DNA of 64,000 bases, taken from contig OZ024872.1 in NCBI GenBank assembly GCA_964017185.1, forward strand, positions 43,778,188-43,842,187, written 5' to 3'. The notes below the pieces were generated by a model. It did no database searches. It was not told the DNA's origin and was given only the letters and a program-made list of their open reading frames with translations. This document shows positions 5,048 through 56,216 of the stretch, piece by piece. Origin of the DNA: Rugalucina vietnamica. Lineage: Eukaryota; Mollusca; Bivalvia; Lucinida; Lucinidae. Each line of letters starts with the position of its first letter. Position 1 is the first letter of the stretch. A program made the translations under genes and the position numbers.

Positions 5048-5159
5048 TCTTAAATTTCTTTCTTTTTTTTTTCTTTCTCGTTGGAATCGATCACAGACAT
5101 CTGAAATTCGTTTTTCTCGTGATGGGGCTCAGTTAACGCACACTTAGGTAATTAATTTT

Positions 5160-26836: not shown

Positions 26837-26918
26837 AATGTTTGCATGAAATGGTAGAAAAATTACGGTGGTATCTTTAGGACACGCAATATTTTTTTAA
26901 GAAAAATATATGTCGTGC

Positions 26919-28078
26919 AAACGGGATATTAATTCGTTCAAACGGGATATTAATCCGTGCAAACGAGATATTAATTCGTACAAACGACATGTTAATTCGA
27001 GCAAACGGCATATGAATTCGTGCAAACGGTTTATTAATCCATGCAAACGATATATTAATTCGAGCAAACGGGATATCAATTCGTTCCAACGGGATATTAA
27101 TCCGTGCAAACGAGATATTCGTACAAACGACATATTAATTCGAGCAAACGGGATATGAATTCGTGCAAACGGTTTATTAATCCATGCAAACGATATATTA
27201 ATTCGAGCAAACGGGATATCAATTCGTTCAAACGGTTTATTAATCCGTACAAACGATATATTAATTCGAGCAAACGGGATATCAATTCGTTCCAACGGGA
27301 TATTAATTCGTGCAAACGAGATATTAATTCGTACAAACGACATATTAATTCGAGCAAACGGGATATGAATTCGTGCAAACGGTTTATTAATCCATGCAAA
27401 CGATATATTAATTCGAGCAAACGGGATATCAATTCGTTCAAACGGGATATTAATCCGTGCAAACGATATATTAATTCGTACAAACGACATATCAATTTGA
27501 GCAAACGGGATATGAATTCGTGCAAACGGTTTATTAATCCGTGCAAATGATATATTAATTCGAGCAAACGGGATATCAATTCGTTCAAATGGGATATTAA
27601 TCCGTGCAAACGAAATATTAATTCGTACAAACGACATATTAATTCGAGCAAACGGGATATGAATTCGTGCAAACGGTGTATTAATCCGTGCAAACGATAT
27701 ATTAATTTGTGCAAACGGGATATCAATTCGTTCAAACGGGATATTAATCCGTGCAAACGATATATTTATTCGTACAAACGACATATTAATTCGAGCAAAC
27801 GGGATATGAATTCGTGCAAACGGTTTTATTAATCCGTACAAACGATATATTAATTCGAGCAAACGGGATATCAATTCGTTCAAACGGGATATTAATCCGT
27901 GCAAACGAGATATTAATTCGTACACACGACATATTAATTCGAGCAAACGGGATATGAATTCGTGCAAACGGTATATTAATCCGTGCAAACGATATATTAA
28001 TTCGAGCAAACGGGATATCAATTCGTTCAAACGGTTTATTAATCCGTGCAAACGGATTATTAATCCGTGCAAACGACA
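26919..28078 (+). repeat. 21-bp minisatellite, left arm, 7-monomer higher-order unit
   Basis: About 55 monomers of the form GATATTAATTCGTGCAAACG (plus one base). Variants recur in fixed order (GGGATATCAATTCGTT, GGGATATTAATCCGTG, GAGATATTAATTCGTA, GACATATTAATTCGAG, GGGATATGAATTCGTG, GGTTTATTAATCCGTG, GATATATTAATTCGAG), giving a 147-bp higher-order repeat, about eight copies. Confidence 0.95.
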
Positions 28079-30806: not shown

Positions 30807-30976
30807 GATATCATCATGAATAATTTATACAGTTTTGAAGACCATAATTCATTAAGTTAACATTCTAGGTCACACAGTAAAATTAATGTTTGAGCTAACA
30901 ATCAAAGTTTGGTACAATAAATAAATAAGACCAGGTCCAAAGGTCAATCGATCAACTTGGTTTTCCTGTCATAATA

Positions 30977-32365
30977 TCTCGTCCAAACGAATTATTATCT
31001 CGTCCAAACGGATTAATAAACCGTTTGCACGAATTCATATCCCGTTTGCTCGAATTAATATGTCGTTTGTACGAATTAATATCTCGTTTGCACGGATTAA
31101 TATCCCGTTTGAACGAATTGATATCCCGTTTGCTCGAATTAATATATCGTTTTGCACGGATTAATATACCGTTTGCACGAATTCATATCCCGTTTGCTCG
31201 AATTAATATGTCGTTTGTACGAATTAATATCTCGTTTGCACGGATTAATATCCCGTTTGAACGAATTGATATCCCGTTTGCTCGAATTAATATATTGTTT
31301 GCACGGATTAATATCCTGTTTGAACGAATTCATATCCCGTTTGCTCGAATTAATATATTGTTTGCACGGATTAATAAACCGTTTGTACGAATTCATATCC
31401 CGTTTGCTCGAATTAATATGTCGTTTGTACGAATTAATATCTCGATTGCACGGATTAATATCCCGTTTGAACGAATTGATATCCCGTTTGCTCGAATTAA
31501 TATATCGTTTGCACGGATTGATAAACCGTTTGCACGAATTCATATCCCGTCTGCTCGAATTAATATGTCGTTTGTACGAATTAATATCTCGTTTGCACGG
31601 ATTAATATCTCGTTTGAACGAATTGATATCCCGTTTGCTCGAATAAGTATATCGTTTGCACGGATTAATATACCTTTTGCACGAATTCATATGCCATTTG
31701 CTCGAAATAATATGTCGTTTGCACGGATTAATATACCGTTTGCACGAATTCATATCCCGTTTGATCGAATTAATATGTCGTTTGTACGAATAAATATCTC
31801 GTTTGCACGGGTTTATATTCCGTTTGAACGAATTGATATCCCAGTTGCTCGAATTAATATATCGTTTGCACGGATTAATATACCGTTTGCACGCATTCAT
31901 ATCCCGTTTGCTCGAATTTATATGTCGTTTGCACGGATTAATAAACCGTTTGCACGAATTCATATCCCGTTTGTTCGAATTAATATGTCGTTTGTACGAA
32001 TTAATATCTCGTTTGCACGGATTAACATCCCGTTTGAACGAATTGATATCCCGTTTGCTCGAATTAATATATCGTTTGTACGGATTAATAATCCGTTTGC
32101 ACAAATTCGTATCCCGTTTGCTCGAAATAGATGTCGAATTAATATGTCGTTTGTACGAATTAATATCTCGTTTGCACGAATTAATATCCCGTTTGAACGA
32201 ATTGATTTCCCGTTTGCTCGAATTAATATATCGTTTGCACGGATTAATATACCGTTCGCACGAATTCATATCCCGTTTGCTCGAATTAATATGTCGTTTG
32301 TACGAATCAATATCTCGTTTGCACGGATTAATATCCCGTTTGAACGAATTAATATCCCGTTTGCA
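30977..32365 (-). repeat. 21-bp minisatellite, right arm
   Basis: Inverted relative to the left array; about 66 monomers with the same seven-variant order and a few local disruptions (for example near 31680 and 32115). Confidence 0.95.
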
Positions 32366-32429
32366 CGACATATATTTTTCTTAAAAAATTATTGCGTGTC
32401 CTATAGATACCACCGTAAAAAATGATTTG

Positions 32430-35840: not shown

Positions 35841-35872
35841 ATATAGTTTGATATATTTGTTGTCAACGACAT
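35841..35872 (-). pseudogene. Orphan GPCR start (first codons only)
   Basis: On the minus strand the ATG and codons for MSLTTNISNY of the GPCR at 48653 are repeated. After AACTATAT the sequence diverges and the frame soon ends. The upstream flank is intact, so this is a duplicated promoter and start without its gene. Confidence 0.85.
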
Positions 35873-37596
35873 TCTGAAAGTAGACGTCAATACCTGTCTT
35901 TAAAGCAACAGATCCGAGAAGCTGCTTCCTAAATCGAACACGCCTTACTTTGTCAAGTCATGATGCGAGTTATTTTATTCATTCGATCATTTTCGTCCAC
36001 GATGTCTGGCATCCAGTTTTCTTCCCTCGATCCTTAATTTCCCATATTTTCTCGCCTCGATCCTTAGTGTCCCATATCATTTTGTCTGGATCCCTGGTTG
36101 CCTATGTCTTCCCAGTCCTAAAAAAGTAAAACCAAAACATGCTAATGGGCATTTAAAAAAAATGGCCCCAAAGAGTCACAGACAAATCTATTCTTATTTG
36201 TACCGTAATACCGCTAATTCAATATTTTTGGTGAGATTCAATAAAACATGAAGGATGGTTCTTAAAAATGATGGCGTTTTGTTGAATTTTTAACTGTAAA
36301 GTGGAAAAAAATCTTACAATCCTTTCTTTCTAAAAAAAAACAACAACAACAACAGTAAACAGGTGACAGAGCTAAACCAAATGTTGTGTTAACTGATTGG
36401 GGGCCTGAGCTTAGTATTTATGTGAACAACCACACAAGTATTAAACATTTGTTGACCAGTAACCTTGAAATCTTACACTCCTTACAGTTGCTTTGCGTGT
36501 GGTGATATAAAAATCTGAAAATACAAGAGTGTCTGTGTTCTTCATTCTTTTTATCTCTATATTCATATGTTTGACATTTTGTATCTCTTCAATTTCCATT
36601 CCTTAATTTGATACAGTATGATAGCTAATGTCACACAGAAATCCAAGTTGCACTCATTACATCAAATATCTGCACAACTGTTTTATTTATAAACACGGGG
36701 TCTATTCTCTAAGCCTATTTGATCTGGTGTCGTCCAGGTATAAGCAAGTTCCGGTAGTGGTTGTGAAAAATTGAATGTAAACAAAGAAATTGAGTAGACA
36801 GGTGAACAGGTAAGTTGCATGATTTCTTTTTTATCTTTTGATTTTGAATAAAATCCTGATGTGCAGTCTCAAGAGAATTTACAAACGTTATTAGAAATCA
36901 AAACTAGAGTGGCGAAGATGCAATAGGAAACTTGTTTTTGATGTTCAAAGTTTCGATACGTGGCTGTTTTGATATAACAGTTTCGGCCAGATTCACAAGT
37001 TTGCCCTATATTTTGAAGATTTATGCACCGGACATTGTCCGATTCGACCCACAAATAAATATAACCAGTACGTACATTCCTGGGAATCGAAATCGCTTCA
37101 TGAAAGGGAGTCCAAAATAAAAAATCTTGGTATAAGCACATTTTTCAGGTGGCCGTGAATGTTAAGACGCTTTAGTACGGTGAACGTGCAATCTCAATGA
37201 CTCTGTACCAGGTACTCATATTGTTTATGCAGTCGAAGCCACTCTCAAATTTTAAATAATTGAGCTTGTTTATAGTGGCTGAAAGACATATTCGCTGAAA
37301 AGCTCAACAAGGATATCATCCATCACATCCCAAAACATAAAATTGTTCCTCCTAATTATGGCGTGAGTTGCATAACGCGAACCCTTGAAAAATTGATGAC
37401 GCCATTTTGATCTTCCTTGTTCCTTACATGTGTTGCTTTCAAAGAGTCAGCTCCTTGGAACGTTACGTAGAGACAGGAAAGTAAATCTGTGGATCAGAAT
37501 GTCCAGGTATATACATAATTGAGTATACAATTTGCACACAGACACCAGGTGGACAAATGACATTGCAAGACATCAGTCTAAAATATACTGAATAAG

Positions 37597-37828
37597 TTGC
37601 ATCATGAGAAAACAAACATTTCGCATATACCAAAACAAACGCGCAGACCAGCTTCACAGTAACTGCGAAGCTGATAAGCGCCTTTGTTTTCGCCACTCGG
37701 CTAGGTCAATTCATCTACTTTCTAAATCCAAAATTTTCGGCCTCTAGCCATCTTCTGTGTTTGTACAGCTCGGTTTGTGTCGAACCTGTTTGGAAATCAC
37801 ATTGTTGGTTTTCTCATGACGCGGCTCA
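37597..37828 (-). mobile_element. TGAGCC MITE, copy 18 (in left arm)
   Basis: Starts TTGCATCATGAGAAAACAAA, ends ATGACGCGGCTCA; AG on both sides. The same insertion is in the right arm at 46698. Confidence 0.9.
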
Positions 37829-38033
37829 AGTGATGTTTAGCAAAGTATTTGTAGGCGGGCGTATACGTTTATGCACCATATATCTGGTTCTACACAGGGT
37901 GCTTTGAATCCTTCCCGACATCACTCAACCATTGTCAACTGGGACGTAAAAGTGACATACATTGAACGGTAAATGGTCGAGTAAGACACTTCTTTCTAAT
38001 ACGATCCCCATTTTATACTCCAATTGTGTTTTA

Positions 38034-38225
38034 GTGCATTTTCATTGCATGTGCGTGATAGCATGTAGTTCATAGAAGCCTCCTTTGAAAAGTTTGTTTG
38101 TTTGAATTGATGCTTTACGCCCCAGTCAACAATTTCATTGCATGTGCGTGATAGCATGTAGTTCATAGAAGCCTCCTTTGAAAAGTTTGTTTGTTTGAAT
38201 TGATGCTTTACGCCCCAGTCAACAG
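38034..38225. repeat. 92-bp tandem duplication
   Basis: Two copies of TTTCATTGCATGTGCGTGAT...ACGCCCCAGTCAAC. Mirrored at about 46300-46490 in the right arm, so it predates the inverted duplication. Confidence 0.9.
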
Positions 38226-39599
38226 CTAAGGTGGAGTCGAAAACCTTATTTTGTAATGATTGATTCAATCATCGTTGATTCAATCTTGGCTTCACCAATG
38301 TTTCGAATGGGACTTTTAACCTAGGTCTTGCCTCCGACCTAAATTATCATGGACGTATTGCCCAGGTCATCCTCACAACCATGACTACTACGACTAATGC
38401 ATAGGTCACATTTGGCCTACGATTAGCTTGCGATGATTGCACGATGCTAATTTTGGCATTTTCGTCCAGTTCCGCACGATGATCCTATGATGTTCCAACG
38501 ATCTCCATAGCCTCTACGAATTTGTAATAGTCTACACTTATATAAATTTTACACATCGGAAAACCGTAGCCCGTAGACACGTCGTGTGCGCGCTGATGGA
38601 GACCCTTCGATGATCGTACGATCGTAGGGAGACCGCAAGGGCTCAGTCAGAAATCATAGGGGCTCCCCGCGGACATCGCACGGGCTCTATACGATTTCCA
38701 ATTAAAGACAATTTCCATACGATCTCCATTCGGTTCTGATTCAAAACATCGACGAAAACCAGAGCAAGAAATCGTTAAATTGTTAACACATATGTCGTAG
38801 CTCACGATCATCTACGATGTCTTAAATCGTAGGGAAAATCACAGACAAAAAATCGTATGATGATTTGGGGCAAATGTAACCTAGGCATAAACACTATAGT
38901 TTCATTGTTAATCGTACAAACTAGTTGTAATGCTTATAACGCCTATTACTCTTCGATCTACAGTAACAATAACAATTTAACGAAAGTCTTAATGTGTGCA
39001 ACTGCACATATGGTATTGCCTGTTAAATGTGTGCAACTGCAATATGGTATTGCCTGTTAAAAGGGTCCATATCATGAACGAATCTCAAAAGTAACGAAAA
39101 CTTAAGAGTTTCATATTTTTGAAAATATCTCACAACCCATGATTTTGTGCTTTGCATTCACACCACCCCTACATTTTATTCTTATTCGTTACATGTTTAC
39201 ATGGTGTTCTTCATCCAAAGCAAAATGACATGTTATTTCTTGAATATAAAAATCATTGAAGACCAACAAGTGTACTCAACTTTAGCAGTCTGCTCAAAAT
39301 CACAAGTGTGTCGACAAATTTATAAAAAATGTACCGCTAGTTTATCTTCTCGCGGATATAAGGCACGTGCTTTTATGAGCTTTGAACATTGTCGCTTCTC
39401 AAACTTTTGCAAAGATTTGTTAGTGCTAATTTAATGTTTTAATATGTATCTAGAGACTGCACTTCAAGAAATGTACATTGCTGACCTAACTTCCTATATT
39501 TGTTTCATTTTATGAAGAAAACAATGAAACACCTGACTAAATAAACCTTAACCAGCACAACTCCCGAGCATATTGGCTTGACGAATAGACCCCGTGATA

Positions 39600-42076: not shown

Positions 42077-42286
42077 TTGTAGAAGGGTCAGTTGCAAAAA
42101 TTCATACCCACTGAAAACATTTGAATGATGTTTGCTCTTTTAAAAATTTAAATGGTTTCAAATTATATATACTTTATTTTACAACATATGACAACAGTTA
42201 TTACTATGTTCCACTTTTCAGAAAAATAAAAAGAGGAAGGTCGATTAATTTAGCTGATTAATTTTCGCACCTATTGCAAATGGATA

Positions 42287-42517
42287 TGAGCCGCTGCATG
42301 GAAAAAACAACAATCTGCATAGGCAAAAAAGGCGCAGATCAGCTTCGCAGTAACTGCGAAGCTGATCAGCGCCTTTGTTTTCGCTACACGGATAGTACAA
42401 TTCATCTACTTTCCAAACCCAAAATTTCCAGCCTCTAACCATCTTCTGTGACTACAGCCCGGTTTGTGTCGGACCTGGTCGGAACACAAATTGTTGGTTT
42501 TCTCATGCACAGGCTCA
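42287..42517 (-). mobile_element. TGAGCC MITE, copy 21
   Basis: Complete, near the centre of the spacer. Palindrome CTTCGCAGTAACTGCGAAG. Flanks TA / TT do not match. Confidence 0.88.
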
Positions 42518-42740
42518 TTTATACTTACTCCCCTTATCACATGTCTCAGTCTCTGTGAATTTCCTATCCTTGCTAAATGTTGATATTACGACGTTACTGA
42601 CAAACAAACAGAAAATGCCATGCAGGTAGACAGAAATGATATTGAAAGACACTAGAAGGACGAAGTATCAAGAATTTCATGAACATTTTTTGGCAAGGAT
42701 GTATTGTGTACGACTGAGTAGGACATCGTCAAACAACTAA

Positions 42741-42853
42741 AACAGCCCTGCAAACAGGTACTTTTTCTGTTTATAACTTATACATTTTTTTTCTCTTGCT
42801 AAGTTATATCATAGACAAAACAAGAAGCCCAACTTTAGATTGTATCCTTTAGC

Positions 42854-42888
<35 letters not shown>

Positions 42889-43598
42889 ACGCCAACAATC
42901 AGACAATGTATTACTGAAAATTATCCCAAATCGCTTATTTTGCTTAATTTGGCTATCGATATGTTTGTATTTAAGGATGTTCGCTGCCAATTAAAAAGCA
43001 ATCAAACTTTTTTTCTAACCCTCTTCTTTGATTCCAAAATATAACAAGACATTTGAAAACAAAATTAGCATATGGTAGTGTGCATTTTTTCAAGCTATAT
43101 GCCTCTGAATTTGACTTCTGAACACCATGTTTTAAATTTAGTAAATTTAATTTAATTTTCAATTCTTTGAAAAAACAGCCCTGCAAACAGGTACTTTTTC
43201 TGTTTATAACTTATACATTTTTTTTCTCTTGCTAAGTTATATCATAGACAAAACAAGAAGCCCAACTTTAGATTGTATCCTTTAGCCAAAAAAAAAAAAA
43301 AAAAAAAAAAATAACGCCAACAATCAGACAATGTATTACTGAAAATTATCCCAAATCGCTTATTTTGCTTAATTTGGCTATCGATATGTTTGTATTTAAG
43401 GATGTTCGCTGCCAATTAAAAAGCAATCAAACTTTTTTTCTAACCCTCTTCTTTGATTCCAAAATATAACAAGACATTTGAAAACAAAATTAGCATATGG
43501 TAGTGTGCATTTTTTCAAGCTATATGCCTCTGAATTTGACTTCTGAACACCATGTTTTAAATTTAGTAAATTTAATTTAATTTTCAATTCTTTGAAAT
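42741..43598. repeat. ~430-bp tandem duplication
   Basis: Units 42741-43173 and 43174-43598, near identical apart from the length of an internal A-run. The duplicated piece includes the left end of the element at 43400. Confidence 0.93.
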
Positions 43599-44291
43599 AT
43601 ATCTGTCCTGAACAAAAATACACAAAGAACGCTTTCAGAAGTCATAATATTTACTTAACGCAGGCTATTTTGGACAAAGAACATACAACAATTTGCAATT
43701 TATAATGGATGACAAAATTTTACGACTTTTTTTACAACCCTACCCGCATTCTTGAAAAGTCGGAAAAAAACAATATTTTGAAATGAGCCAAACCCATATT
43801 TACAAGTAGATTCAAACTTTTTCTTGTATTTTCACACAACATAGAACTTGTTTACATTGTTGGAATAAACAAATGAAATATATAGGGTAGTGCGCATATA
43901 AGAGAGAACCATTTGAGCCCTTTTATGGCTGTTTTGTTTCTTACACCCCATTTCATAAAACAACCCAAAATTTTAAAAGTAGCAATCCAAATGCAAAAAA
44001 GACTAACATAGAAGACCCTGTGCACATCTACTGCTGCTACAATAAACATCTAAACAGTGCAATTAATTTGAAGATGTGTAAGAATCAAGTTTAATCTGCC
44101 ATACCCCCTAAATTTTACTGACAACTAAAATTTCTGAAAAGTTGCAGAAAATGGGGTGAAAAAGATTGGCAATTTTTATGACTCATTCAATGCATATCAT
44201 CAATATGTCTTCAAATATAAAATAATGAAAATATCTTCGACAAAATAGAAAACCGGAAGTTCCGAAATGTCAAATTTTGCAGCGAATATCC
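43400..44291. mobile_element. ~890-bp DNA element with GGATRTTCGCTGC ends
   Basis: Left end GGATGTTCGCTGCCAATT, right end the complement of GGATATTCGCTGCAAAATT. No coding capacity. The left part also appears at 42974 through the tandem duplication. Confidence 0.6.
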
Positions 44292-44738
44292 CTAATAAAG
44301 GTCCACTGATGTGTAGTTATTATTAATTACGTAAAATGTGAACGTCAACGGAAATCTGACGTTTTATTTCGTCTCTCTGTTGAACTTACTCTAATATCCC
44401 TTAGTTAAAATCAAGTAGCAAAATTAAAGAAACACCACCAAGGCGAGAAAATATACACATAATTATGTGTTGCGTATCTTTTTTGTTCTAGTATATAATC
44501 ATAGCATTGCATCGGCGATAGTACTAAACTATGTTTTTGTATAATAGCATGGCATCGGCGATAGTACTAAACTATGTTTTTGTATTATAGCTTACTTGTA
44601 ACGTTACTTTGTTGGCTCCAAAATCTGGTTTCAATTTAATTCTGATCGCATGTGGCTGTTAAAGGCTTGAAAAAAATAATACACCTTACAGAGCACTTCC
44701 TTTTTGTCTAATTTGTTATGAATGGTTTACATTGTTCT

Positions 44739-44814
<76 letters not shown>

Positions 44815-44931
44815 GTCTGACTGTCTGTCAACAGGCTACACGTTACCATTGAAAGGAAACATTAGGGAGGTTTAAAAATGGCCACGGCCCATTTTGAGGC
44901 TTTTTAGACTGACTTTTCTGTGATGTAACTT
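44292..44931. other. Spacer, last part
   Basis: Two 48-bp tandem copies of GCATCGGCGATAGTACTAAA near 44510-44600, then (CT)n at 44745-44812. No gene. Confidence 0.7.
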
Positions 44932-44934
44932 TAT

Positions 44935-47831
44935 CACGGGGTCTATTCGTCAAGCCAATATGCTCGGGAGTTGTGCTGGTTAAGGTTTATTTAGTCAGGT
45001 GTTTCATTGTTTTCTTCATAAAATGAAACAAATATAGGAAGTTAGGTCAGCAATGTGCATTTCTTGAAGTGCAGTCTCTAGATACATATTAAAACATTAA
45101 ATTAGCACTAACAAATCTTTGCAAAAGTTTGAGAAGCGATCTGCGACAATGTTCAAAGCTCATAAAAGCACGTGCCTTATCCGCGAGAAGATAAACTAGC
45201 GGTACATTTTTTATAAATTTGTCGACACACTTGTGATTTTGAGCAGACTGCTAAAGTTGAGTACACTTGTTGGTCTTCAATGATTTTTATATTCAAGAAA
45301 TAACATGTCGTTTTGCTTTGGATGAAGAACACCATGTAAACATGTAACGAATAAGAATAAAATGTAGGGGTGGTGTGAATGCAAAGCACAAAATCATGGG
45401 TTGTGAGATATTTTCAAAAATATGAAACTCTTAAGTTTTCGTTATTTTTGAGATTCGTTCATGATATGGACCCTTTTAACAGGCAATACCATATTGCAGT
45501 TGCACACATTTAACAGGCAATACCATATGTGCAGTTGCACACATTAAGACTTTCGTTAAATTGTTATTGTTACTGTAGATCGAAGAGTAATAGGCGTTAT
45601 AAGCATTACAACTAGTTTGTACGATTAACAATGAAACTATAGTGTTTATGCCTAGGTTACATTTGCCCCAAATCATCATACGATTTTTGTCTGGGATTTT
45701 CCCTACGATTTAAGACATCGTAGATGGTCGTGAGCTACGACATATGTGTTAACAATTCAACGATTTCTTGCTCTGGTTTTCGTCGATGTTTTGAATCAGA
45801 ACCGAATGGAGATCGTATGGAAATTGTCTTTAATTGGAAATCGTATAGAGCCCGTGCGATGTCCGCGGGGAGCCCCTATGATTTCTGACTGAGCCCTTGC
45901 GGTCTCCCTACGATCGTACGATCATCGAAGGGTCTCCATCAGCGCGCACACGACGTGTCTACGGGCTACGGTTTTCCGATGTGTAAAATTTATATAAGTG
46001 TAGACTATTACAAATTCGTAGAGGCTATGGAGATCGTTGGAACATCATAGGATCATCGTGCGGAACTGGACGAAAATGCCAAAATTAGCATCGTGCAATC
46101 ATCGCAAGCTAATCGTAGGCCAAATGTAACCTATGCATTAGTCGTAGTTGTGAGGATGAGCTGGGCAATACGTCCATGATAATTTAGGTCGGAGGCAAGA
46201 CCTAGGTTAAAAGTCCCATTCGAAACATTGGTGAAGCCAAGATTGAATCAACGATGATTGAATCAATCATTACAAAATAAGGTTTTCGAATCCACCTTAG
46301 CTGTTGACTGGGGCGTAAAGCATCAATTCAAACAAACAAACTTTTCAAAGGAGGCTTCTATGAACTACATGCTATCACGCACATGCAATGAAAATGTTGA
46401 CTGGGGCGTAAAGCATCAATTCAAACAAACAAACTTTTCAAAGGAGGCTTCTATGAACTACATGCTATCACGCACATGCAATGAAAATGCACTAAAACAC
46501 AATTGGAGTATAAAATGGGGATCGTATTAGAAAGAAGTGTCTTACTCGACCATTTACCGTTCAATGTATGTCACTTTTACGTCCCAGTTGACAATGGTTG
46601 AGTGATGTCGGGAAGGATTCAAAGCACCCTGTGTAGAACCAGATATATGGTGTATAAACGTATACGCCCGCCTACAAATACTTTGCTAAACATCACTTGA
46701 GCCGCGTCATGAGAAAACCAACAATGTGATTTCCAAACAGGTTCGACACAAACCGAGCTGTACAAAAACAGAAGATGGCTAGAGGCCGAAAATTTTGGAT
46801 TTAGAAAGTAGATGAATTGACCTAGCCGAGTGGCGAAAACAAAGGCGCTTATCAGCTTCGCAGTTACTGTGAAGCTGGTCTGCGCGTTTGTTTTGGTATA
46901 TGCGAAATGTTTGTTTTCTTATGATGCAACTTATTCAGTATATTTTAGAGATGTCTTGCAATGTCATTTGTCCACCTGGTGTCTGTGTGCAAATTGTATA
47001 CTCAATTATGTATATACCTGGACATTCTGATCCACAGATTTACTTTCCTGTCTCTACGTAACGTTCCAAGGAGCTGACTCTTTGAAAGCAACACATGTAA
47101 GGAACAAGGAAGATCAAAATGGCGTCATCAATTTTTCAAGGGTTCGCGTTATGCAACTCACGCCATAATTAGGAGGAACAATTTTATGTTTTGGGATGTG
47201 ATGGATGATATCCTTGTTGAGCTTTTCAGCGAATATGTCTTTCAGCCACTATAAACAAGCTCAATTATTTAAAATTTGAGAGTGGCTTCGACTGCATAAA
47301 CAATATGAGTACCTGGTACAGAGTCATTGAGATTGCACGTTCACCGTACTAAAGCGTCTTAACATTCACGGCCACCTGAAAAATGTGCTTATACCAAGAT
47401 TTTTTTATTTTGGACTCCCTTTCATGAAGCGATTTCGATTCCCAGGAATGTACGTACTGGTTATATTTATTTGTGGGTCGAATCGGACAATGTCCGGTGC
47501 ATAAATCTTCAAAATATAGGGCAAACTTGTGAATCTGGCCGAAACTGTTATATCAAAACAGCCACGTATCGAAACTTTGAACATCAAAAACAAGTTTCCT
47601 ATTGCATCTTCGCCACTCTAGTTTTGATTTCTAATAACGTTTGTAAATTCTCTTGAGACTGCACATCAGGATTTTATTCAAAATCAAAAGATAAAAAAGA
47701 AATCATGCAACTTACCTGTTCACCTGTCTACTCAATTTCTTTGTTTACATTCAATTTTTCACAACCACTACCGGAACTTGCTTATACCTGGACGACACCA
47801 GATCAAATAGGCTTAGAGAATAGACCCCGTG
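44935..47831 (+). mobile_element. 2.9-kb DNA transposon, right copy, 5-bp target duplication
   Basis: CACGGGG...CCCCGTG ends flanked by TTTAT on both sides (44930-44934 and 47832-47836). Mirror of the left copy, with no transposase frame. Superfamily unassigned. Confidence 0.82.
46698..46929 (+). mobile_element. TGAGCC MITE, copy 22 (in right arm)
   Basis: Mirror of copy 18, nested in the 2.9-kb transposon. Confidence 0.9.
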
Positions 47832-48652
47832 TTTATAAATAAAACAGTTGTGCAGATATTTGATGTAATGAGTGCAACTTGGATTTCTGGGTGACATTAG
47901 CTATCATACTGTATCAAATTAAGGAATGGAAATTGAAGAGATACAAAATGTCAAACATATGAATATAGAGATAAAAAGAATGAAGAACACAGACACTCTT
48001 GTATTTTCAGATTTTTATATCACCACACGCAAAGCAACTGTAAGGAGTGTAAGATTTCAAGGTTACTGGTCAACAAATGTTTAATACTTGTGTGGTTGTT
48101 CACATAAATACTAAGCTCAGGCCCCCAATCAGTTAACACAACATTTGGTTATCTCTGTCACCTGTTTACTGTTGTTGTTGTTGTTGTTTTTTTAGAAAGA
48201 AAGGATTGTAAGATTTTTTTCCACTTTACAGTTAAAAATTCAACGAAACGCCATCATTTTTAAGAACCATCCTTCATGTTTTATTGAATCTCACCAAAAA
48301 TATTGAATTAGCGGTATTACGGTACAAATAAGAATAGATTTGTCTGTGACTCTTTGGGGCCATTTTTTTAAAATGCCCATTAGCATGTTTTGGTTTTACT
48401 TTTTTAGGACTGGGAAGACATAGGCAACCAGGGATCCAGACAAAATGATATGGGACACTAAGGATCGAGGCGAGAAAATATGGGAAATTAAGGATCGAGG
48501 GAAGAAAACTGGATGCCAGACATCGTGGACGAAAATGATCGAATGAATAAAATAACTCGCATCATGACTTGACAAAGTAAGGCGTGTTCGATTTAGGAAG
48601 CAGCTTCTCGGATCTGTTGCTTTAAAGACAGGTATTGACGTCTACTTTCAGA

Positions 48653-51600
48653 ATGTCTTTGACAACAAATATATCAAACTATATTGGGAATAATACTGTT
48701 TTGGACGCAGAACCGCTGTCTAACACCTCACCCTGGTTACTTGCCATCGGTATAATTCTATTCTCATGGATCATCATTGCAAATGCTACAGTGTTCATTT
48801 GTTCTGTTACTTACCAAAAGGTCAAAAAGATTACCATTTATATACCGGTACTAAGTTTAAGTTTCACGGATATGCTTGTTGGATTTTGCATGATTCCAAT
48901 GTTTCTAATGCAAGCGACAAACGCAGTTGTTAACTCTGAAACATGTGTTGGAGTTTTGATATGTTACATTGTTTGTCAAGGCGCTGCATTATATCACATG
49001 CTGCTGGTTTGTGTCAACCGACTTATCGTGATGAGAAGACCTTCAAACAAAAAACGTGAAAATTTGAAAACAACCCTCGCTGGCATAGCAATGATTTGGA
49101 CCGGTTGTCTCATTGGCTTTGGAACACCACTCCCGATATTTGGCACTCCTGATGGTCAAGTTTACTGCTCTTTGCCTGAACTTTTCGGACAGAACTATAC
49201 ATACGTTACTGGGTGGGTTGGTGTACTGCTTATATTGCCCTTTTTATCTGTAAACATACTGTATGTTTATTTACTAGTGTATCTCAGAATGAAATGGAGG
49301 GCTGTACATATTGGTGTATCAGATAAAACGCGTAAACATTCCCAGGGAATAGACGCTAATGATCAAAAAGACGACACAGATGAACTTGATCATCGTGGTT
49401 TGCAACCCGCTGCGGTACCCTTAGAAACAAAAACAACTAAACGCCCAGTTCTTAAGGTACATGTAGTAACCATTCTTGATCCAAAACCCAGTGTAATCAA
49501 TGAAGTTGTTACTAAGTCACCTGGCGTTATTGAGAAAGAACTCGGTACAAGCAAACGCGCAGTTGATAAGTCTGTAGATGTTCTTGACCAGCAGCCTGAC
49601 ACGTGTTCAAGCAAACACACTGTCGTTAGGTCAGCAGATGTTCTTGTACAAGAACCCGGTTCAAGCAAACACGCAAGTGTAATGTCAGCTGACATTCTTG
49701 ATCAAGAACCTGGTATAAGCAAACGTGCTGATTTTAAGTCAGTTGGCATTCTTGATCAAGAACCCGGTACAAGCAAACACGCTGATGTTAAGTCAGCTGA
49801 TGGTCTGAATGAAGAACCTGGTACAAGCAAACACGCTGATGTTAAGTCAGCTGATGTTCTGAATGAAGAACCTGGTACAAGCAAACACGCTGATGTAATG
49901 TCAGTTGGCGGTCTTGATCAAGAACCCGGTACAAGCAAACACGCTGATGTTAAGTCAGCTGATGTTCTGAATGAAGAACCTGGTACAAGCAAACACGCTG
50001 ATGTAATGTCAGGTGGCGTTCTTGATCAAGAATCTGGTGCAAGCACACACTTTGGTGTAATGCCAGATGACGATCTTGATCAAGAACATGGTACAAGCAA
50101 ACGCGCCGATATAAAATCTGGTGCAAGCAAACGCGGTGATGTAATGTCAGCTGACGTTCTTGAGCAAGAACCAGGCAAAAGCAAACACGCTGATGTTAAG
50201 TCAGCAGCTGATGTTCTTGATCAAGACCCAGGCACAAGCAAACACGCTGGTGTAATGTCAGCTGACGTTCTTGATCAAGAACCAGACACAAGCAAACACG
50301 TTGATGTCATGTCAGCTGATGTTCTTGATCAAGAACCAGGCACAAGCAAACACGCTGATGTTAAGTCAGCTGATGTTCTTAATGAAGAACCTGGTACAAG
50401 CAAACACGCTGGTGTAATGTCAGCGTACTTTCTTGTTCAAGAACCAAGTACAAGTGAACATGCTGATGTTAAGTCAGCTGATGTTCTTGACCAAGAACTA
50501 GGCACTAACAAACACGCTGATGTTAAGTCAGCTGACGTTCTTGATCAAGAACCAAGCACTAGCAAACACGCTGATGTTATGCCAGCTGATGTTCTTGATC
50601 AAGAACCAAGCACAAGCAAACACGCTGATGTAATGTCAGCTGACGTTCTTGATCAAGAACCAAACAAAAGCAAACATGCTGATGTAATGTCAGCTGACGT
50701 TCTTGATCAAGAACCAAACAAAAGCAATCACGCTGATGTAGTGTCAGCTGACGTTCTTGATCACGAACCAGACACAAGCAAACACGCTGATGTTATGTCA
50801 GCTGATGTTCTTGATCAAGAACCAGGCACAAGCAAACACGCTGATGTAATGTCAGCTGACGTTCTTGATCAAGAACCAAACAAAAGCAAACGTGCTGATG
50901 TAATGTCAGCTGACGTTCTTGATCAAGAACCAAGCAAAAGCAATTACGCTGATGTAGTGTCAGCTGACGTTCTTGATCAAGAACCAAACAAAAGCAAACA
51001 TGCTGATGTAATGTCAGCTGACGCTCTTGATCAAGAACCAAACAATAGCAAACACGCTGATGTAGTGTCAGCTGACATTCTTGATCAAGAGCCTGGTACA
51101 AGCAAACACGCTGACGTAATGCCAGCTGACGTTCTAGATCAAGAACCAGACAAAAGCATACACGCTGATGTTAAGTCAGCTGATGTTCTTGAACAAGAAC
51201 CAGGCACAAGCAAGCGCACAGATGTTAAGTCAGTAGACTTTTATGATCAAGCACCAGGTACCAGCAAACACGCTGATAATTCAGCTGATGTTCTTGAACA
51301 AGAGGCTGGTACAAGCAAACACGCTGATGTAAAGCCAGCAAATGTTCAAGAAACCGGTACAAATAAAGGCATCTCAGAACATAAACGTCACATCTTTATC
51401 AATGTTAGGCCGGCAAATAACAATGAAACGAATGCTCTAAGCGCAGAAGTCAAAGATCGAAACCTGAGCAGACAAGATGAACAAATTATAGTCAAAGAAC
51501 CTGAAAATGGGTCAAGATCAAGAATCAAACTCGGGGTTGCTAAAAATAATCGCATCGGTTTGAAAACCCAAAGGCGCGTTCTCGTATCAGTTGGTGTAAT

Positions 51601-51814
51601 TCTAGTATCAATGAATGTATGCCTGACACCGCTTGTCATCTTTGGCGTCTTTGAAAGTCTCAATCCGGGTTATGTAAACCAAAATATCAAATTATTGTGC
51701 TTGATCCTGGCAATGCTAAATAGTGCGCTAAATCCAGTCATATTTGTAGTCATGACACAACCACTTCGAGCAGTTCTTTTTGCTTTGGCAAGGAAAGTAT
51801 TTCGCTGTAGGTGA
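48653..51814 (+). CDS. Class A GPCR with giant repeat-filled third intracellular loop, 1053 aa
   Basis: Intronless gene; start chosen at the first in-frame ATG (48653). Short N-terminus with N-glycosylation sites at N6, N13 and N24. Class A landmarks: N44 in TM1, D73 (TM2), C98 paired with C172, N122-R123-L124 in place of DRY, W149, P196 and Y204 in TM5, CLTP (990-993) in place of CWxP, and NPVIF (1027-1031) in place of NPxxY. The C-tail is very short. Between TM5 (ending about 212) and TM6 (starting about 975) lies a loop of about 760 residues, most of it about 34 copies of an 18-residue unit like SKHADVMSADVLDQEPGT. Plasma-membrane receptor; ligand not inferable. The altered DRY, toggle and NPxxY sites suggest unusual activation. 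A MITE starts 6 nt after the stop. The 5' end lies in the inverted duplication. Confidence 0.9.
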   Translation: MSLTTNISNYIGNNTVLDAEPLSNTSPWLLAIGIILFSWIIIANATVFICSVTYQKVKKITIYIPVLSLSFTDMLVGFCMIPMFLMQATNAVVNSETCVGVLICYIVCQGAALYHMLLVCVNRLIVMRRPSNKKRENLKTTLAGIAMIWTGCLIGFGTPLPIFGTPDGQVYCSLPELFGQNYTYVTGWVGVLLILPFLSVNILYVYLLVYLRMKWRAVHIGVSDKTRKHSQGIDANDQKDDTDELDHRGLQPAAVPLETKTTKRPVLKVHVVTILDPKPSVINEVVTKSPGVIEKELGTSKRAVDKSVDVLDQQPDTCSSKHTVVRSADVLVQEPGSSKHASVMSADILDQEPGISKRADFKSVGILDQEPGTSKHADVKSADGLNEEPGTSKHADVKSADVLNEEPGTSKHADVMSVGGLDQEPGTSKHADVKSADVLNEEPGTSKHADVMSGGVLDQESGASTHFGVMPDDDLDQEHGTSKRADIKSGASKRGDVMSADVLEQEPGKSKHADVKSAADVLDQDPGTSKHAGVMSADVLDQEPDTSKHVDVMSADVLDQEPGTSKHADVKSADVLNEEPGTSKHAGVMSAYFLVQEPSTSEHADVKSADVLDQELGTNKHADVKSADVLDQEPSTSKHADVMPADVLDQEPSTSKHADVMSADVLDQEPNKSKHADVMSADVLDQEPNKSNHADVVSADVLDHEPDTSKHADVMSADVLDQEPGTSKHADVMSADVLDQEPNKSKRADVMSADVLDQEPSKSNYADVVSADVLDQEPNKSKHADVMSADALDQEPNNSKHADVVSADILDQEPGTSKHADVMPADVLDQEPDKSIHADVKSADVLEQEPGTSKRTDVKSVDFYDQAPGTSKHADNSADVLEQEAGTSKHADVKPANVQETGTNKGISEHKRHIFINVRPANNNETNALSAEVKDRNLSRQDEQIIVKEPENGSRSRIKLGVAKNNRIGLKTQRRVLVSVGVILVSMNVCLTPLVIFGVFESLNPGYVNQNIKLLCLILAMLNSALNPVIFVVMTQPLRAVLFALARKVFRCR
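49540..51370 (+). repeat. 54-bp coding minisatellite in the GPCR loop
   Basis: About 34 units, mostly exactly 54 bp so the frame is kept. One truncated unit (SKRADIKSGA, about 50095-50130), one with an extra Ala (KSAADV) and one with a missing residue (ADNSADV). Two subtypes alternate (VLDQEP and VLNEEP; MSADV and KSADV), suggesting block duplication. The unit is acidic with one SKH/SKR start. Confidence 0.95.
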
Positions 51815-51820
51815 TATTGA

Positions 51821-52045
51821 TGAGTCGCGAGGCGAGAAAACTGGTCTCCGGGATTTCCGACCAGCTCCGGCACAAACCAGCCTGTACAGCCTCAGAAAAA
51901 GGCTAGAAGTTTGAATTGTTTGATTTGACAAAAGGAGATATTCTACTACCTGTGTACAGCGAAAACAAATGGGCTGATCAGCTTCACAGTTACTGCGAAG
52001 CAGCATTGCTGAGCTGCGCATTTGTTTTCGCATATGTAAAATATG
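51821..52045 (+). mobile_element. TGAGCC MITE, copy 23, left part
   Basis: TGAGTCGCGAGGCGAGAAAA to TTTGTTTTCGCATATG. Its right end is displaced to 53742 by a later insertion. Confidence 0.8.
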
Positions 52046-52049
52046 GAAG

Positions 52050-53741
52050 GGACTAGATAGTGAAAAGAGGCGAAAAGATGGAAAAAAAAGAATAAAAAAA
52101 AGAGGTTCTTTATTGCGAAAAGAGGCGCGTTTATGATGCAAATGATGCAATGCAAATTAGCTAATTCAGATAATACGATAGTAGTAGAGTATTGAAATTC
52201 TAAAATAGTTTATGTCGACAAAAAAGTGTGATGGTCTAGTGAGAGCATAGGTGTGCATTAATATCACAATAGGCGTTGACTGACACGCACGTACGAGGGT
52301 TGTTCTTTAAGTCTTGCCATTGACTCATTTTTCTCCTTAACCAGCATCTGTACCAGAAGATTGATACTTGATAATTATGAATAGGTTATTTACGATATTG
52401 AAACCACTCAACCATTTTAGGATGATGCAATTACATGTAATCATTGCAATCTGAGTCTCTGAAGAGGGGCACCCTGATGACACTGCAAATACCTACTTTG
52501 GCCTGTCCCAACATACACTATAACGTTTGGTTTAAAATGGTTAGGAGAACAATTTTATGCTTCATTACCTTGCTAATACATAGGTGAAAAATTATTTTCT
52601 TAAAACAGAAATTGCAGTTTTTACGAGACTATAAACATAGCACTACGCATGTTTGTTATGAATTGATAAATTTTAGAAGTTTCAGAGCCTCATAATTTCA
52701 TGTCCAGTTATGACTGATCCGAACTGTTAATACTGCTTTGTATCTGATCTTTGCTAATTCCATTGATAGAAATTTTGGATCCTTTATCCTCTGAAACCTT
52801 GAGTTATGAGTAGCAACATTTTGAAAGAATCACAAAATTCCTTTAAATGAGGTGTCCATACCACAATGTAATCATGTGCTGAAAATAATACAGCTTCACA
52901 TGATTTATCTACTTGGTTAAGAAGCGTTTTGATAGGCGTTTAAACTCATAAAAATTATTTGGTTACTATAACAACAGAGAGGGGCAGCTCTGTTAGAAAC
53001 TGTGTGACTGCTTCACCTTAAACCTGACGTAATCGTTCAATTGACATTCAAAGCGAATATCCATATAAACCATTTTAGACAAAATTAAGATAACCATTAA
53101 TTTGAGATATTCACCCTATAATTCAATTTGCAAAATATGAAAATCATGAAAAGCGTAACCTTAGCAATGAATTTAAATGGCGTAGATTGAAAATATTATG
53201 ACGTCATATTGAGGGGCAATAATTCTATAAAGTCAAAGTGAAAACCTTCTACAAAAGATAAGTGTTTTCTGATGCCCATATGAATGGCGGGTTTATGTGT
53301 AAAATGAAAGTGGGCGTGTATATGCTGTGGAGAGTGTTACAGCATTTACTTAACAAGTGATCGAAATTAAATACTTCAAATTAACTGGAAAACAACACAG
53401 TGCCAGACAGCAATAATTTTGATACTAATCTGACCAGAAAAGACCATATATAAACAACATTCTCGTTGGTCGTCAACAGGCAAAGTATAATCAAGCAAAT
53501 GACAAGAATTAAGGAACAACCCTCGTATATTGCCAGTTTTGACACCTTTGTTAATTTACAACTACTGCCTCGAAAAAGAAATTGGACTACGATGTTTATA
53601 GAAGCAAATTTAATATTCTCTCTCAAAAATGAATGACAAAATTTAAATTTATACATACACTGTCTCTGTTTAATGGTAAAAATGTTTTTTTTTTACCTCG
53701 ATATTTTCGCATCTTTTCGCCTCATTTCGCGAACAGAGCCT
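52050..53741. mobile_element. Insertion splitting a TGAGCC MITE
   Basis: Near its ends are inverted GAGGCGAAAAGATG motifs (52068 and 53714). Contains a mariner-type element. Otherwise featureless AT-rich sequence. Confidence 0.5.
52292..53527. mobile_element. Mariner-type element, 1.24 kb, no transposase seen
   Basis: Inverted ends TACGAGGGTTGTTCYTTAAK (about 30 bp, few mismatches) with TA at the tips, a mariner-like terminus. The length equals an autonomous mariner, but I see no transposase motifs. Confidence 0.7.
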
Positions 53742-53796
53742 GTTTTCGCTATCTACACATACCGTCAAAGGGTAGGTTTTCTCATGACGCGGCTCA
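53742..53796 (+). mobile_element. TGAGCC MITE, copy 23, right part
   Basis: TGTTTTCGC to GTTTTCTCATGACGCGGCTCA, completing the copy begun at 51821. Confidence 0.75.
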
Positions 53797-53976
53797 ATTA
53801 TTGTCAGCGTATCAATGTATGAAAATGAGAGATACATTACCTTGGGAGAAACTTTGTTCAAAATGTATATTTATTTGTACCTAAAGAAAATTTTAAAGCT
53901 TTTTTTACTTGTTGAAGTAATATTTTGAATCATACACTGTACGTAGGTGGTCCAGTGTCAGCAGGGGCTATTCTAT

Positions 53977-53989
53977 GTTGCCTAGCAAC
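53977..53989. promoter_or_regulatory. X-box-like palindrome (RFX-type)
   Basis: GTTGCCTAGCAAC, a full match to the imperfect palindrome bound by RFX factors. Inverted copy at 54898. No gene start nearby, so function is doubtful. Confidence 0.4.
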
Positions 53990-54064
53990 AGCATTTGGCA
54001 AAATAGCACAATTTGGACGAATCATGACAATTTTCTATAAATCAGACATACATCTGGCGCAGAT

Positions 54065-54343
54065 CATTACGAAAGCTTGTCCATGCAATATATAGAGATT
54101 TTTTTCACCTATAAAAATTGAAAATTTCATCAGAAAAATTTCGATATTTTTCTTATTTTTGCTCAAAACATAGATTGTGGGTACACGTTAGAACCGCCTC
54201 GGTGAGGCGGTTCTAACGAGTACCCACAATCTATGTTTTGGAGCAAAAATAAGAAAAATAGGTATACCCCTGCATACCTCAGTTTTGCTATATAAAAGTG
54301 GGGTTTAAGGGGGTATTCATTACATGGACATGTTTTGCTGATG
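54065..54343 (+). mobile_element. CATYACG hairpin MITE, complete
   Basis: Best example of the central hairpin: GTTAGAACCGCCTCGG and its complement fold tightly (54178-54225), flanked by inverted CAAAACATAGATTGTGGG. Confidence 0.9.
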
Positions 54344-54394
54344 AAGATGAAAATATCGACCTTTTTGCCCACACCCCATTATAACTTCGATAAA

Positions 54395-54611
54395 TGAGCG
54401 TGTGCATGAGAAAACAAACGATTTGGGTTCCAACTAGGTCCGACACAAACTGTCGGGCTGTACAGTCACAGAAGATGTTTAGAGGCTGGAAATTTTTGAT
54501 TTAGAAAGTAGGTGAATTGTACTGTCCGTGTAGCGAAAACAAAGGCGCTGATCTGTTTTCGCCTACAGATGCAGAATTTTAAGATTGTTGGTTTTCCCAT
54601 GTGGCGGCTCA
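54395..54611 (+). mobile_element. TGAGCC MITE, copy 24
   Basis: TGAGCGTGTGCATGAGAAAA to CATGTGGCGGCTCA; one palindrome arm deleted. AA on both sides. Confidence 0.88.
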
Positions 54612-56216
54612 AATATTTTGTAGAATTTAACCCTTTGGGTTGAGTAGAAGGGGCATCGATGGGAATCGGGTGGTTTAGAGCTATAAAGATTTACTCAGAT
54701 TCTATATAGGGGGTTACGGATAGCCAAACCTCATTCATTTGCATTGGACCAGCTATGTACAATAAACCTATGAATGGGGTCGTTTTACTTTTGATTAAAA
54801 TGATTATTAACGTAGAAGCTACAGTTGTATATGGCACTAATTTTCATAAATAAAAAGCATTTTAATCGTGCCAGGTTAGTTTGTCTTACATTCTCTTGTT
54901 GCTAGGCAACAGTCGTTAACATATGATTCAGTCAAAATAGTAATCGGATCCGGAACAGTAATCCCTATACCCAAGGATTTTGAAACCCAGCACCTTAATT
55001 GCTGGCAAAGATTCTTCTGTAGCAGACGAAAAATTCTACTGGATCCTAAAAATCAAAACCTGATATCTTTAAATCAGCTTAGCAGAAAGTGGGGATCAGA
55101 GCAGGAAATTTGAGCTTTGTACACAAAAACATGCATCTTTGACCCTTACTAGGTGATTTTAACCTTTATAGAATAAGCATTTGAAACAAAAAGTCACATT
55201 AAGTCAGTGAATCAACCAGATCAGTTATTAATTCTAGCAAACTCTCACCAAAACACCTTTGGTGCCCTATTTAAATTGGTCTAATTTGTAAGTTCGGTCT
55301 TGAAAATTGTTTATATGTCCTTTAGATAATTCCTTGCAAAAATACAAACTGTGAAACCAGTAATGAGGCCAGAAATGCGGGCTTTATTTCCAAAGTTTCA
55401 CATACAGTAACAGTACTTTAGTTACCTTTTCTAGGCACCTCCCCCTATGAATACTATACCATGTTATAATATCTAAGCTGCATTTTAGTAGTAAAACAAT
55501 CCAAAATCACCCAGATCATTTTAAGGGATAAGCTGGCTATGGAAGTTTTGAATGTTTTTTCTTTACTTTTGGCAGACAGACATACAACTGCCTACAATTT
55601 TTTCAGGGATGTCCTGCTTATTTATTGCAATCAAAGACAGAACAATATTAATAAGTTTGCATTTGCGCATTTTAGTTGCAATCACTCTCTGGACTAGAAA
55701 AGCCGATCCAGACTTTTTTTTTGAGAAAAAATATTAAGTCTATACCGATATCCTGATGAAGGTTTGCATATTAGCATTATTTAATAATGTACTTAAAGCA
55801 GCATAAAAAGGATGTCATTTTTAATGAATTTTATTATCTCAATTTATACGCCATCTGCATTCTAATACGAGGCTACACATAGAGGCAATTAAAGGTGAAT
55901 ATTCTACTAAGTTGTGTTATAGTCTCTCATAGCTCTCACGAAGAGCCGCTCATGCACGTGTATATGCTTTCTGTGAGGTGAGACTTTAATAAATTATTTG
56001 TATTGTATTGTATGAAAAATAACGATGGTTACAGAAATTACACATGATTGAGTTCGCATTACTTACTGGACCACCCACGTATGCTCGTAGAAAAAAATAA
56101 TAATGAGGTTCATTTTGTCATGGAAATTATAGTTTTTGTGAAATGTTATACTCATTTGTTGTAATAAATATTTTGTATATACGTATATACATTTTGTCTT
56201 CTTTATAGTACGTTCT
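54612..56216. other. Intergenic, mostly featureless
   Basis: Contains the second X-box palindrome (54898-54910, GTTGCTAGGCAAC). 55930-56015 ends in AATAAATTATTTGTATTGTATTGTAT, resembling a LINE 3' tail. No gene seen. Confidence 0.55.

Follow-up and report, generated by a model that had tools for sequence, protein, structure and literature searches.

The closest described counterpart of the locus analysed here is the human dopamine receptor gene DRD4, in which, as PMC9578002 describes it, exon 3 contains a 48-bp coding VNTR within the third intracellular loop, with 2-11 copies of a proline-rich 16-aa unit, and variants of this VNTR have been associated with disorders. Long third loops gate the access of G proteins in the class A receptors tested, according to the account in PMC10033409. 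The candidate chemoreceptors of the mollusc Aplysia are described as lineage-specific, mostly single-exon, clustered and rhodopsin-like (PMC2700072). In the open-licence PMC literature on repeats in the third intracellular loop, as far as its excerpted texts go, DRD4 is the one receptor found to have an array of this kind; in their excerpts, loop repeats are not the subject of PMC3907043 and PMC2396169. The receptor gene considered here lies in a 64-kb stretch of DNA, the whole of which is referred to below as the window. The initial annotation had presented its repeat-bearing loop as a new receptor architecture, a claim that is not supported in view of the coding VNTR already described in loop 3 of human DRD4 (PMC9578002).

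The receptor gene and its repeat-bearing loop

The gene occupies positions 48653-51814 of the forward strand as a single ATG-to-stop frame of 1053 aa plus stop. Pfam 7tm_1 (PF00001) matches the frame in two stretches, the best at residues 44-214 (E=8e-21). In phmmer comparisons with solved class A receptors, TM1-5 matched 5-HT2A (E=6e-10), and TM6-7 (about residues 971-1045) matched opsins among the other entries; the match to dopamine D4 was weak (E about 1.5e-4) and ranked behind 5-HT2 and other receptors. A single-sequence AlphaFold prediction, its confidence very low (mean pLDDT 34.9) and its use confined to helix order, has seven helices in order plus one N-terminal and one C-terminal helix. 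The class A landmark motifs and the TM3-ECL2 cysteines were located (ANATVF, SFTDMLVG, ETCVG, NRL, IWTGC, YCSLP, LPFLSV, CLTP, and NPVIF), and within TM1-TM5 we take the corresponding positions to be N1.50, D2.50, C3.25, R3.50, W4.50, and P5.50. With a 7tm_1 domain and seven helices, the predicted product is a class A (rhodopsin-like) GPCR, in agreement with the initial description of one frame holding all seven helices.

All parts of the gene lie on the forward strand. TM1 to TM5 (residues 26-218; 48728-49306) carry the conserved class A residues, and TM6, TM7, and helix 8, with CLTP and NPVIF, lie at 51575-51811. Between the TM5 and TM6 anchors extends a third intracellular loop of 756 aa (residues 219-974; 49307-51574), much as the gap of about 760 residues noted at first sight. 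Its array (residues 300-906; 49550-51370; about 1.82 kb) is resolved by cyclic alignment into 34 units of 18 aa plus a 3-residue remnant, such remnants ending each array and being excluded from unit counts, and a 54-bp period was found independently by TRF; both confirm the coding minisatellite of ~34 18-residue units over 1.8 kb that had been read from the letters. The unit consensus is SKHADVMSADVLDQEPGT, with one Pro per consensus unit. Unique loop sequence precedes the array at 49307-49549 and follows it at 51371-51574. The loop has a net charge of -63 and 116 Ser and Thr residues, 97 of which have an acidic residue at most four positions upstream. Further tandem arrays are present elsewhere in the 64-kb window.

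Paralogues, relatives and a second array

A paralogue on another chromosome (C13) has the same architecture, with an ORF of 1036 aa from its ATG, 33 units, and 91% identity to the window gene in TM1-5; the loops of these two carriers of 18-aa arrays are 741-756 residues long. A third repeat-bearing copy, on C8, is a decayed pseudogene (checked in three frames). On the phylogenetic tree the window and C13 genes group together (100/100), and the single-copy gene L021 is their sister (100/100). Within one assembly, the two paralogues differ in unit number (34 vs 33), in unit make-up, and in the order of their units, which is reshuffled. For 24 of the 34 window units and 22 of the 33 C13 units, the nearest relative lies solely within the same array, indicating that the arrays have turned over since the window/C13 duplication.

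One base upstream of the ATG stands TTTCAG (48646-48651, forward strand), predicted to be the likely 3' splice site of an intron in the 5' UTR. TTTCAG followed by A or G and then ATG is common to the C13 paralogue, L021, and the C8 pseudogene, and is absent from the 20 bases before candidate ATGs in the other 19 relatives compared. The right arm of a large inverted repeat (44932-48684, forward strand) overlaps the first 32 bases of the frame; the left arm, its inverted copy (35841-39599, reverse strand), is 98.9% identical over 3768 aligned columns and contains a stub of the 5' end of the receptor gene. The final 228 bases of the right arm (48457-48684), including these 32 bases, are common to the C13 locus. 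At the C13 locus nothing colinear corresponds to the segment at about 44790-48450, part of which recurs with 99-100% identity at five other genomic sites; the transposon-rich insertion and the palindrome are situated about 200 bp upstream of the receptor gene.

Of 78 matches in the genome, full reading covered 28 relatives and the C13 copy, the others, apart from the C8 copy, being assessed by frame length; with the window gene, 30 members were read. The frame exceeds 600 aa in three of the 78 matches (the window gene, the C13 copy, and a cousin, L039) and is open through TM1-TM7 in 28 of the 30 members. L051 and L056, in which no TM6 anchor was recognised, were omitted from the loop counts and the tree, and L028, the frame of which stops after TM6, was omitted from the tree. 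In the 25 single-copy relatives the loop is 85-192 aa long. A Pfam 7tm_1 scan of 1715 candidates listed 150 matches, from 147 candidates, with a largest frame of 870 aa; since the window gene is not among the matches listed, the scan is no census of the family. The family represents lineage-expanded class A receptors.

Three altered activation motifs had been pointed out together with the loop. They are indeed present, as NRL, CLTP, and NPVIF in place of complete DRY, CWxP, and NPxxY, and class A membership does not demand all of these. None of the 30 members read, 27 of them without an array, has an acidic residue before the TM3 Arg, and the terminal Tyr of NPxxY is found in 8 of the 28 members whose motif was read. 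The motif changes are thus not tied to the loop, and their origin as its consequence is rejected, since they are family-wide.

L039 groups with the single-copy genes L054, L038, and L040 (100/99), in a clade apart from the window and C13 genes, and has its own, young array in the same loop, with 12 units of 28 aa in a loop of 428 residues. The 18-aa and 28-aa arrays are two separate amplification events. Net charge of the loop is shifted to negative values in the three array carriers (-63, -58, and -11, vs -2 to +11 in the 25 single-copy relatives). Direct homology of the two units was unsupported (score 17, p about 0.72); the link between them runs solely via the single-copy relatives and a P-[SG]-T-[SA] core present in both.

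Alignment of the loops of 10 divergent single-copy relatives placed the top seven 8-column windows of conservation all at this motif, with a pairwise identity of 0.31-0.35 vs a median of 0.10 for the loop. Of the 25 single-copy loops, 14 contain the pattern P[SGD][TNMRS][SA], chosen after the sequences were seen, vs 1.5 expected by shuffling, the relatives compared being non-independent. When both units were matched to the 25 single-copy loops (50 tests, one chance match expected), the 18-aa unit gave seven matches at p<=0.02, namely the sister gene L021 at KPADIPEPVPSTSK (p<=0.010) and L022, L024, L028, and L031-L033. The 28-aa unit gave eight, with L054, L038, and L040 at p<=0.002 each and five further loops at p<=0.002 to 0.016. 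The core of both units resembles the one at the conservation peak of the loop, so that a single loop motif seems to have undergone amplification on two occasions. The PSTS of L021 aligns some 18 columns before the peak, and so the 18-aa unit can be equated with the motif less safely than the 28-aa unit can; the PGTS of L037 is also off the peak. By a hand calculation from loop lengths, the chance of both arrays landing on such a core is roughly 3%, and the shared core is therefore suggestive only. The generic PxxS motif, which we take to be a USP7-MATH-like docking pattern and which fits many units by eye, is not enriched in the loops (10 of 25 vs 9.2 in shuffled loops), nor is [PA]xxS (18 of 25 vs 17.0), and such a docking motif was rejected as a specific claim.

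Among units, omega in the gene frame is 0.64 in the window array (95% 0.45-0.93) and 0.63 in the C13 array (95% 0.45-0.89), the lowest of the six frames in both, with intervals given for the gene frame only. Stop-gain events number 0 in the gene frame of either array, vs 3.5 (window) and 3.9 (C13) expected, and 3-12 in the other five frames. The third codon position is the most diverse among units of the two 18-aa arrays (p=0.039 and 0.0086). Between the window and C13 genes, dN/dS is 0.24 from the N-terminus to TM5 (Fisher p=8e-6), indicative of purifying selection, 0.71 and 0.89 in the unique loop sequences before and after the array, indistinguishable from 1 (p=0.37), and 0.57 from TM6 to the C-terminus, non-significant alone (p=0.38). 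By these measures both 18-aa arrays evolve as coding sequence under constraint, though weak. A dN/dS near 1 among units, which the initial annotation had named as speaking against its proposal, is not observed, both upper limits being below 1. Its argument that in-frame repeats imply selection holds in part: whole 54-bp units keep the frame trivially, and the evidence thus consists of the absent stops, the low omega, and the partial units that are in frame.

Interpretation of the amplified loop

A possible explanation, which we put forward tentatively, is that the loop serves as a disordered, acidic, Ser/Thr-rich tether that would gate the receptor and multiply a docking or phosphorylation motif. 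The third intracellular loop of the family, otherwise fast evolving, carries a short motif with the core P-[SG]-T-[SA]. A loop segment with this core was tandemly amplified in frame to 33-34 units in the common ancestor of the window, C13, and C8 genes, and L039 amplified another such segment, of 28 aa, 12 times. The expanded loop would form an intrinsically disordered tether gating the cytoplasmic cavity, as the long loops of other receptors do, and the array may offer numerous copies of the acidic Ser/Thr motif, each a potential site of phosphorylation or of docking for kinases, arrestins, or scaffolds, the number of units tuning signalling. That a distant cousin amplified its own loop piece suggests a possible importance of the amplified piece in signalling. 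As the initial annotation had suggested, the array may serve in multivalent binding or as a spacer of variable length. We are more doubtful of the general form of this proposal, in which the family repeatedly multiplies its one conserved loop motif, at least two times independently (34 x 18 aa, 12 x 28 aa), to yield acidic signalling tethers with a valence evolving by unit number.

The functional tether has an equal rival, at least as possible in our estimate, in a tolerated minisatellite. Slippage or unequal exchange would have expanded the 54-bp (and 84-bp) unit within a permissive disordered loop, the array itself being functionless and selection purging stops and frameshifts only because TM6-TM7 lie downstream. 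This is consistent with the nearly neutral unique flanks (0.71 and 0.89), the turnover of the arrays after duplication (24/34 and 22/33 units closest within their own array), the other tandem arrays in the window, and a loop length that varies anyway, from 85 to 192 aa in the 25 single-copy relatives; given that the constraint on the units is weak and near that of the unique loop, tolerance of an expanding repeat accounts for much. Nevertheless, the units of each 18-aa array show an omega below 1, a core resembling the conservation peak of the loop is found in either amplified segment (L021 not being aligned with the peak), and the paralogues have similar unit numbers (34 and 33), possibly by coincidence.

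The other explanations are improbable. Each unit contains an acidic Pro/Ser/Thr stretch between basic residues, which is presumably PEST-like, and an array of these could set receptor turnover as a degradation or trafficking signal; unit composition, together with the net charge of -63 and the 116 Ser and Thr residues of the loop, suits this role, but many disordered loops are composed in this way. Slightly less probable still, the window copy (C4) may be a dying duplicate that lost its proper regulation through the palindrome and the transposon-rich insertion upstream. The segment at about 44790-48450 that lacks a colinear C13 counterpart is part of the palindrome and contains a stretch 99-100% identical to five other genome places, and the C8 copy is already a pseudogene, whereas the 1053-aa frame is intact, dN/dS from the N-terminus to TM5 is 0.24 between copies, and the C13 copy has the same architecture without the insertion. 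Assemblies err readily at tandem arrays; even so, an artefact of assembly or reading frame is nearly refuted by the same architecture with another unit order on C13, by the third repeat-bearing copy on C8, and by the coding signature in both 18-aa arrays.

Comparison with known receptors

To our knowledge, the effects of loop-3 length and repeat number on signalling have been studied mainly in human DRD4, in a handful of alleles. The present family supplies a natural series of loop lengths, from 85-192 residues without an array through 428 with 12 units to about 750 with 33-34 units, and, these loops being set on related seven-helix cores, the relative roles of motif valence and loop length in coupling to G proteins and arrestins can be tested directly. 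It also allows one to ask whether tandem amplification draws preferentially on short motifs that are conserved within disordered loops.

The best match among solved structures, 5-HT2A, shares the class A fold, with TM1-5 alignable (E=6e-10), and is distant; we know of no repeat array in this serotonin receptor. The class A receptors with gating loops are similar in their long TM5-TM6 loop and differ in that tandem repeats are unmentioned in the excerpted text of PMC10033409, the window loop being about 756 aa long. Likened by description, the Aplysia chemoreceptors are also a lineage-specific rhodopsin-like expansion that keeps the Arg at the cytosolic end of TM3, whereas one of their subfamilies measures 319-364 aa and loop-3 repeats are unmentioned in the excerpts of PMC2700072. 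With DRD4, as described in PMC9578002, the window gene has in common an in-frame tandem repeat in loop 3 of a class A receptor, the unit number of which sets the length of the loop. DRD4 has 2-11 proline-rich 16-aa units in one gene (PMC9578002), in contrast to 33-34 acidic 18-aa units in two paralogues here, where a cousin gene adds a second array of a different unit and the match to D4 itself is weak. The kind of loop is thus known from DRD4; its scale and its repeated amplification are new.

The receptor and its third intracellular loop

The window covers C4:43778188-43842187 of a genome assembly of 1.09 Gb. Its frame at 48653-51814 (+) is open from ATG to stop (1053 residues) and matches Pfam 7tm_1 with E=8e-21. 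TM1-5 of the encoded protein can be aligned to class A receptors of solved structure, and TM6-7 via other entries; the marker residues of all seven helices are found in order. Loop 3 spans 756 residues (219-974) from the TM5 anchor to the TM6 anchor, and residues 300-906 of it (49550-51370, +) form an array in which 34 units, each of 18 aa, are accompanied by a remnant of three residues. The description, coordinates and unit count in the initial annotation are right. The three altered activation motifs described there are present too, but they are family traits and not peculiar to this receptor. Examination of its relatives revealed that the acidic residue preceding the TM3 arginine is missing in 30 of 30 family members read, that none of the family sequences whose TM6 was inspected has Trp at the CWxP place, and that the NPxxY motif ends in Asn or Phe in 20 of 28 motifs read.

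Related copies and the genomic setting

Searching the genome with TM1-5 yielded 78 matches. The nearest, on C13, is a complete paralogue that is 91% identical, measures 1036 aa from its ATG and shares the architecture of the window gene, with 33 units. Colinearity of the two loci extends past the gene (parts of 42145-44782, 48457-52283, parts of 53588-54953), and thus the duplication was segmental. For the majority of units the closest relative lies within the array to which they belong (24 of 34 in the window gene and 22 of 33 on C13; 9 and 7 in the other array; ties for 1 and 4), and therefore the arrays have turned over since that duplication. The third copy, on C8 (L012, C8:31846001-31856000, at about 4800-5780), is a pseudogene in which TM1-5 are missing: its first 26 residues run straight into about six units (a visual count), one stop lies 3' of the array, and TM6 carries an insertion. 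This copy suggests that the array is older than the duplications that produced all three.

The window gene adjoins an inverted repeat (35841-39599 and 44932-48684; arms 3.77 kb, 98.9% identical, spacer about 5.3 kb), which takes in the opening 32 bases of the frame and carries a stub of the receptor 5' end in its left arm. A colinear C13 counterpart is absent for the greater part of the right arm. Nor does one exist for the region at about 44790-48450, which contains young mobile DNA and lies about 200 bp 5' of the ATG; this region possibly falls inside a predicted 5'-UTR intron, because the ATG is preceded by TTTCAG in the window gene, the C13 and C8 copies and the single-copy sister gene L021. 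Positions 47600-47837, 99-100% identical to five places (two on C7, and C14, C3 and C5), are likely the end of a young mobile element, and an older repeat family (33/40 matches scored) accounts for 47832-48346. Elsewhere, a 21-bp satellite (ATTAATATCCCGTTTGCACGA-like) forms two oppositely oriented arrays (26913-28075 and 30972-32368, about 55 and 67 copies) that make up an inverted pair, and a 425-bp unit is tandemly duplicated between the palindrome arms (42739-43597, 98% matches).

A second array and a possible amplified motif

In the cousin receptor L039 (C4:18926569-18933222), whose TM1-5 share about 33% identity with those of the window protein, loop 3 is 428 residues long and contains 12 near-identical copies of a 28-aa unit; a search with this unit gave 7 matches at E<=0.001, all of them at this locus. 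The two amplifications are best read as independent events. A 395-aa open frame at G000:C5:57621627-57622364, weakly similar (29-30%) to the 18-aa array, probably encodes an unrelated repetitive protein.

Among single-copy relatives, loop 3 could be read in 25 and measures 85-192 aa. When ten divergent members of this set are aligned, it shows poor conservation with a single peak, the top seven 8-column windows having pairwise identity of 0.31-0.35 versus a median of 0.10; peak sequences include NDQEPSTS (L022), DEQEPGTS (L024), INGPGTGPSTS (L026), MHEPKAGPSTA (L054) and similar others. The pattern P[SGD][TNMRS][SA], picked after inspection, occurs in 14 of the 25 loops versus 1.5 in shuffled loops. 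The 18-aa unit matches KPADIPEPVPSTSK in L021 (p<=0.010); in 50 tests at p<=0.02, it also matches motif-bearing segments in six other single-copy loops, and the 28-aa unit matches single-copy counterparts in three loops, those of L054, L038 and L040 (p<=0.002), as well as segments in five further loops. By a hand estimate from loop and unit lengths, the chance that two amplifications placed at random would each include such a core is about 3%. Against a shared motif count the positions of PSTS in L021, aligned about 18 columns ahead of the peak, and of PGTS in L037, aligned elsewhere, as does the direct comparison of the 18-aa and 28-aa units, which was no better than chance. Two motif-like copies stand in one loop 3 in L022 (SEEPGRSKG and NDQEPSTS), L031, L033 and partly L032, possibly through an incipient or ancient duplication.

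Constraint on the units and possible role

Since a 54-bp unit keeps the frame for free, the unit sequences themselves were tested for coding. Parsimony counts on unit trees gave dN/dS (omega) of 0.64 (95% 0.45-0.93) in the window array and 0.63 (95% 0.45-0.89) on C13, with no stop-gains among 129 and 124 inferred changes versus 3.5 and 3.9 expected (P=0.03 and 0.019). The five other frames all lie above the gene frame (omega 0.79-1.78, as point values without intervals) and have 3-12 stop-gains. Unit diversity is highest at codon third positions (p=0.039, window; 0.0086, C13). The tree-based values were preferred as more trustworthy than pairwise dN/dS among units (0.38 and 0.37). Partial units (10, 13, 16 and 17 aa) and 1- or 2-residue insertions also preserve the frame. 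Between the window gene and its C13 paralogue, dN/dS is 0.24 (p=8e-6) for the part from the N-terminus through TM5 and 0.57 (p=0.38) for that from TM6 to the C-terminus. The unique loop sequences flanking the array have values of 0.71 and 0.89, which jointly do not depart from 1 (p=0.37).

Loop 3 of the three array carriers is acidic (net charge -63, -58 and -11); that of the 25 single-copy members ranges from near neutrality to basic (-2 to +11). An acidic residue lies at most four positions upstream of 97 of the 116 Ser/Thr in the window loop, and acid-directed kinases such as GRK2 prefer Ser/Thr sites with acidic residues upstream. According to a preprint, arrestin recruitment via phosphorylation sites in a long third loop occurs in many receptors that lack a canonical tail (PMC13105114); another study describes long third loops as able to block the G-protein cavity and as accompanying coupling to only one G protein (PMC10033409). 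We therefore propose that the expanded loop may act as a gate and the array as a multivalent motif tether. A tolerated minisatellite accounts for as much, and we give the two explanations about equal weight.

The initial annotation suggested that a repeat scaffold here would be a new receptor architecture. Published work on DRD4 (PMC9578002) speaks against this, as that receptor already has a coding repeat in the same loop; such a repeat is therefore not new as such. The receptors differ in scale, DRD4 having 2-11 copies of a 16-aa unit, whereas the window and C13 receptors have 33-34 units of 18 aa. As far as our searches of the open-licence literature show, three things are new: the size of the array, in a loop of about 750 aa; its occurrence in a pair of paralogues; and the second, apparently independent array that a cousin carries in this loop.
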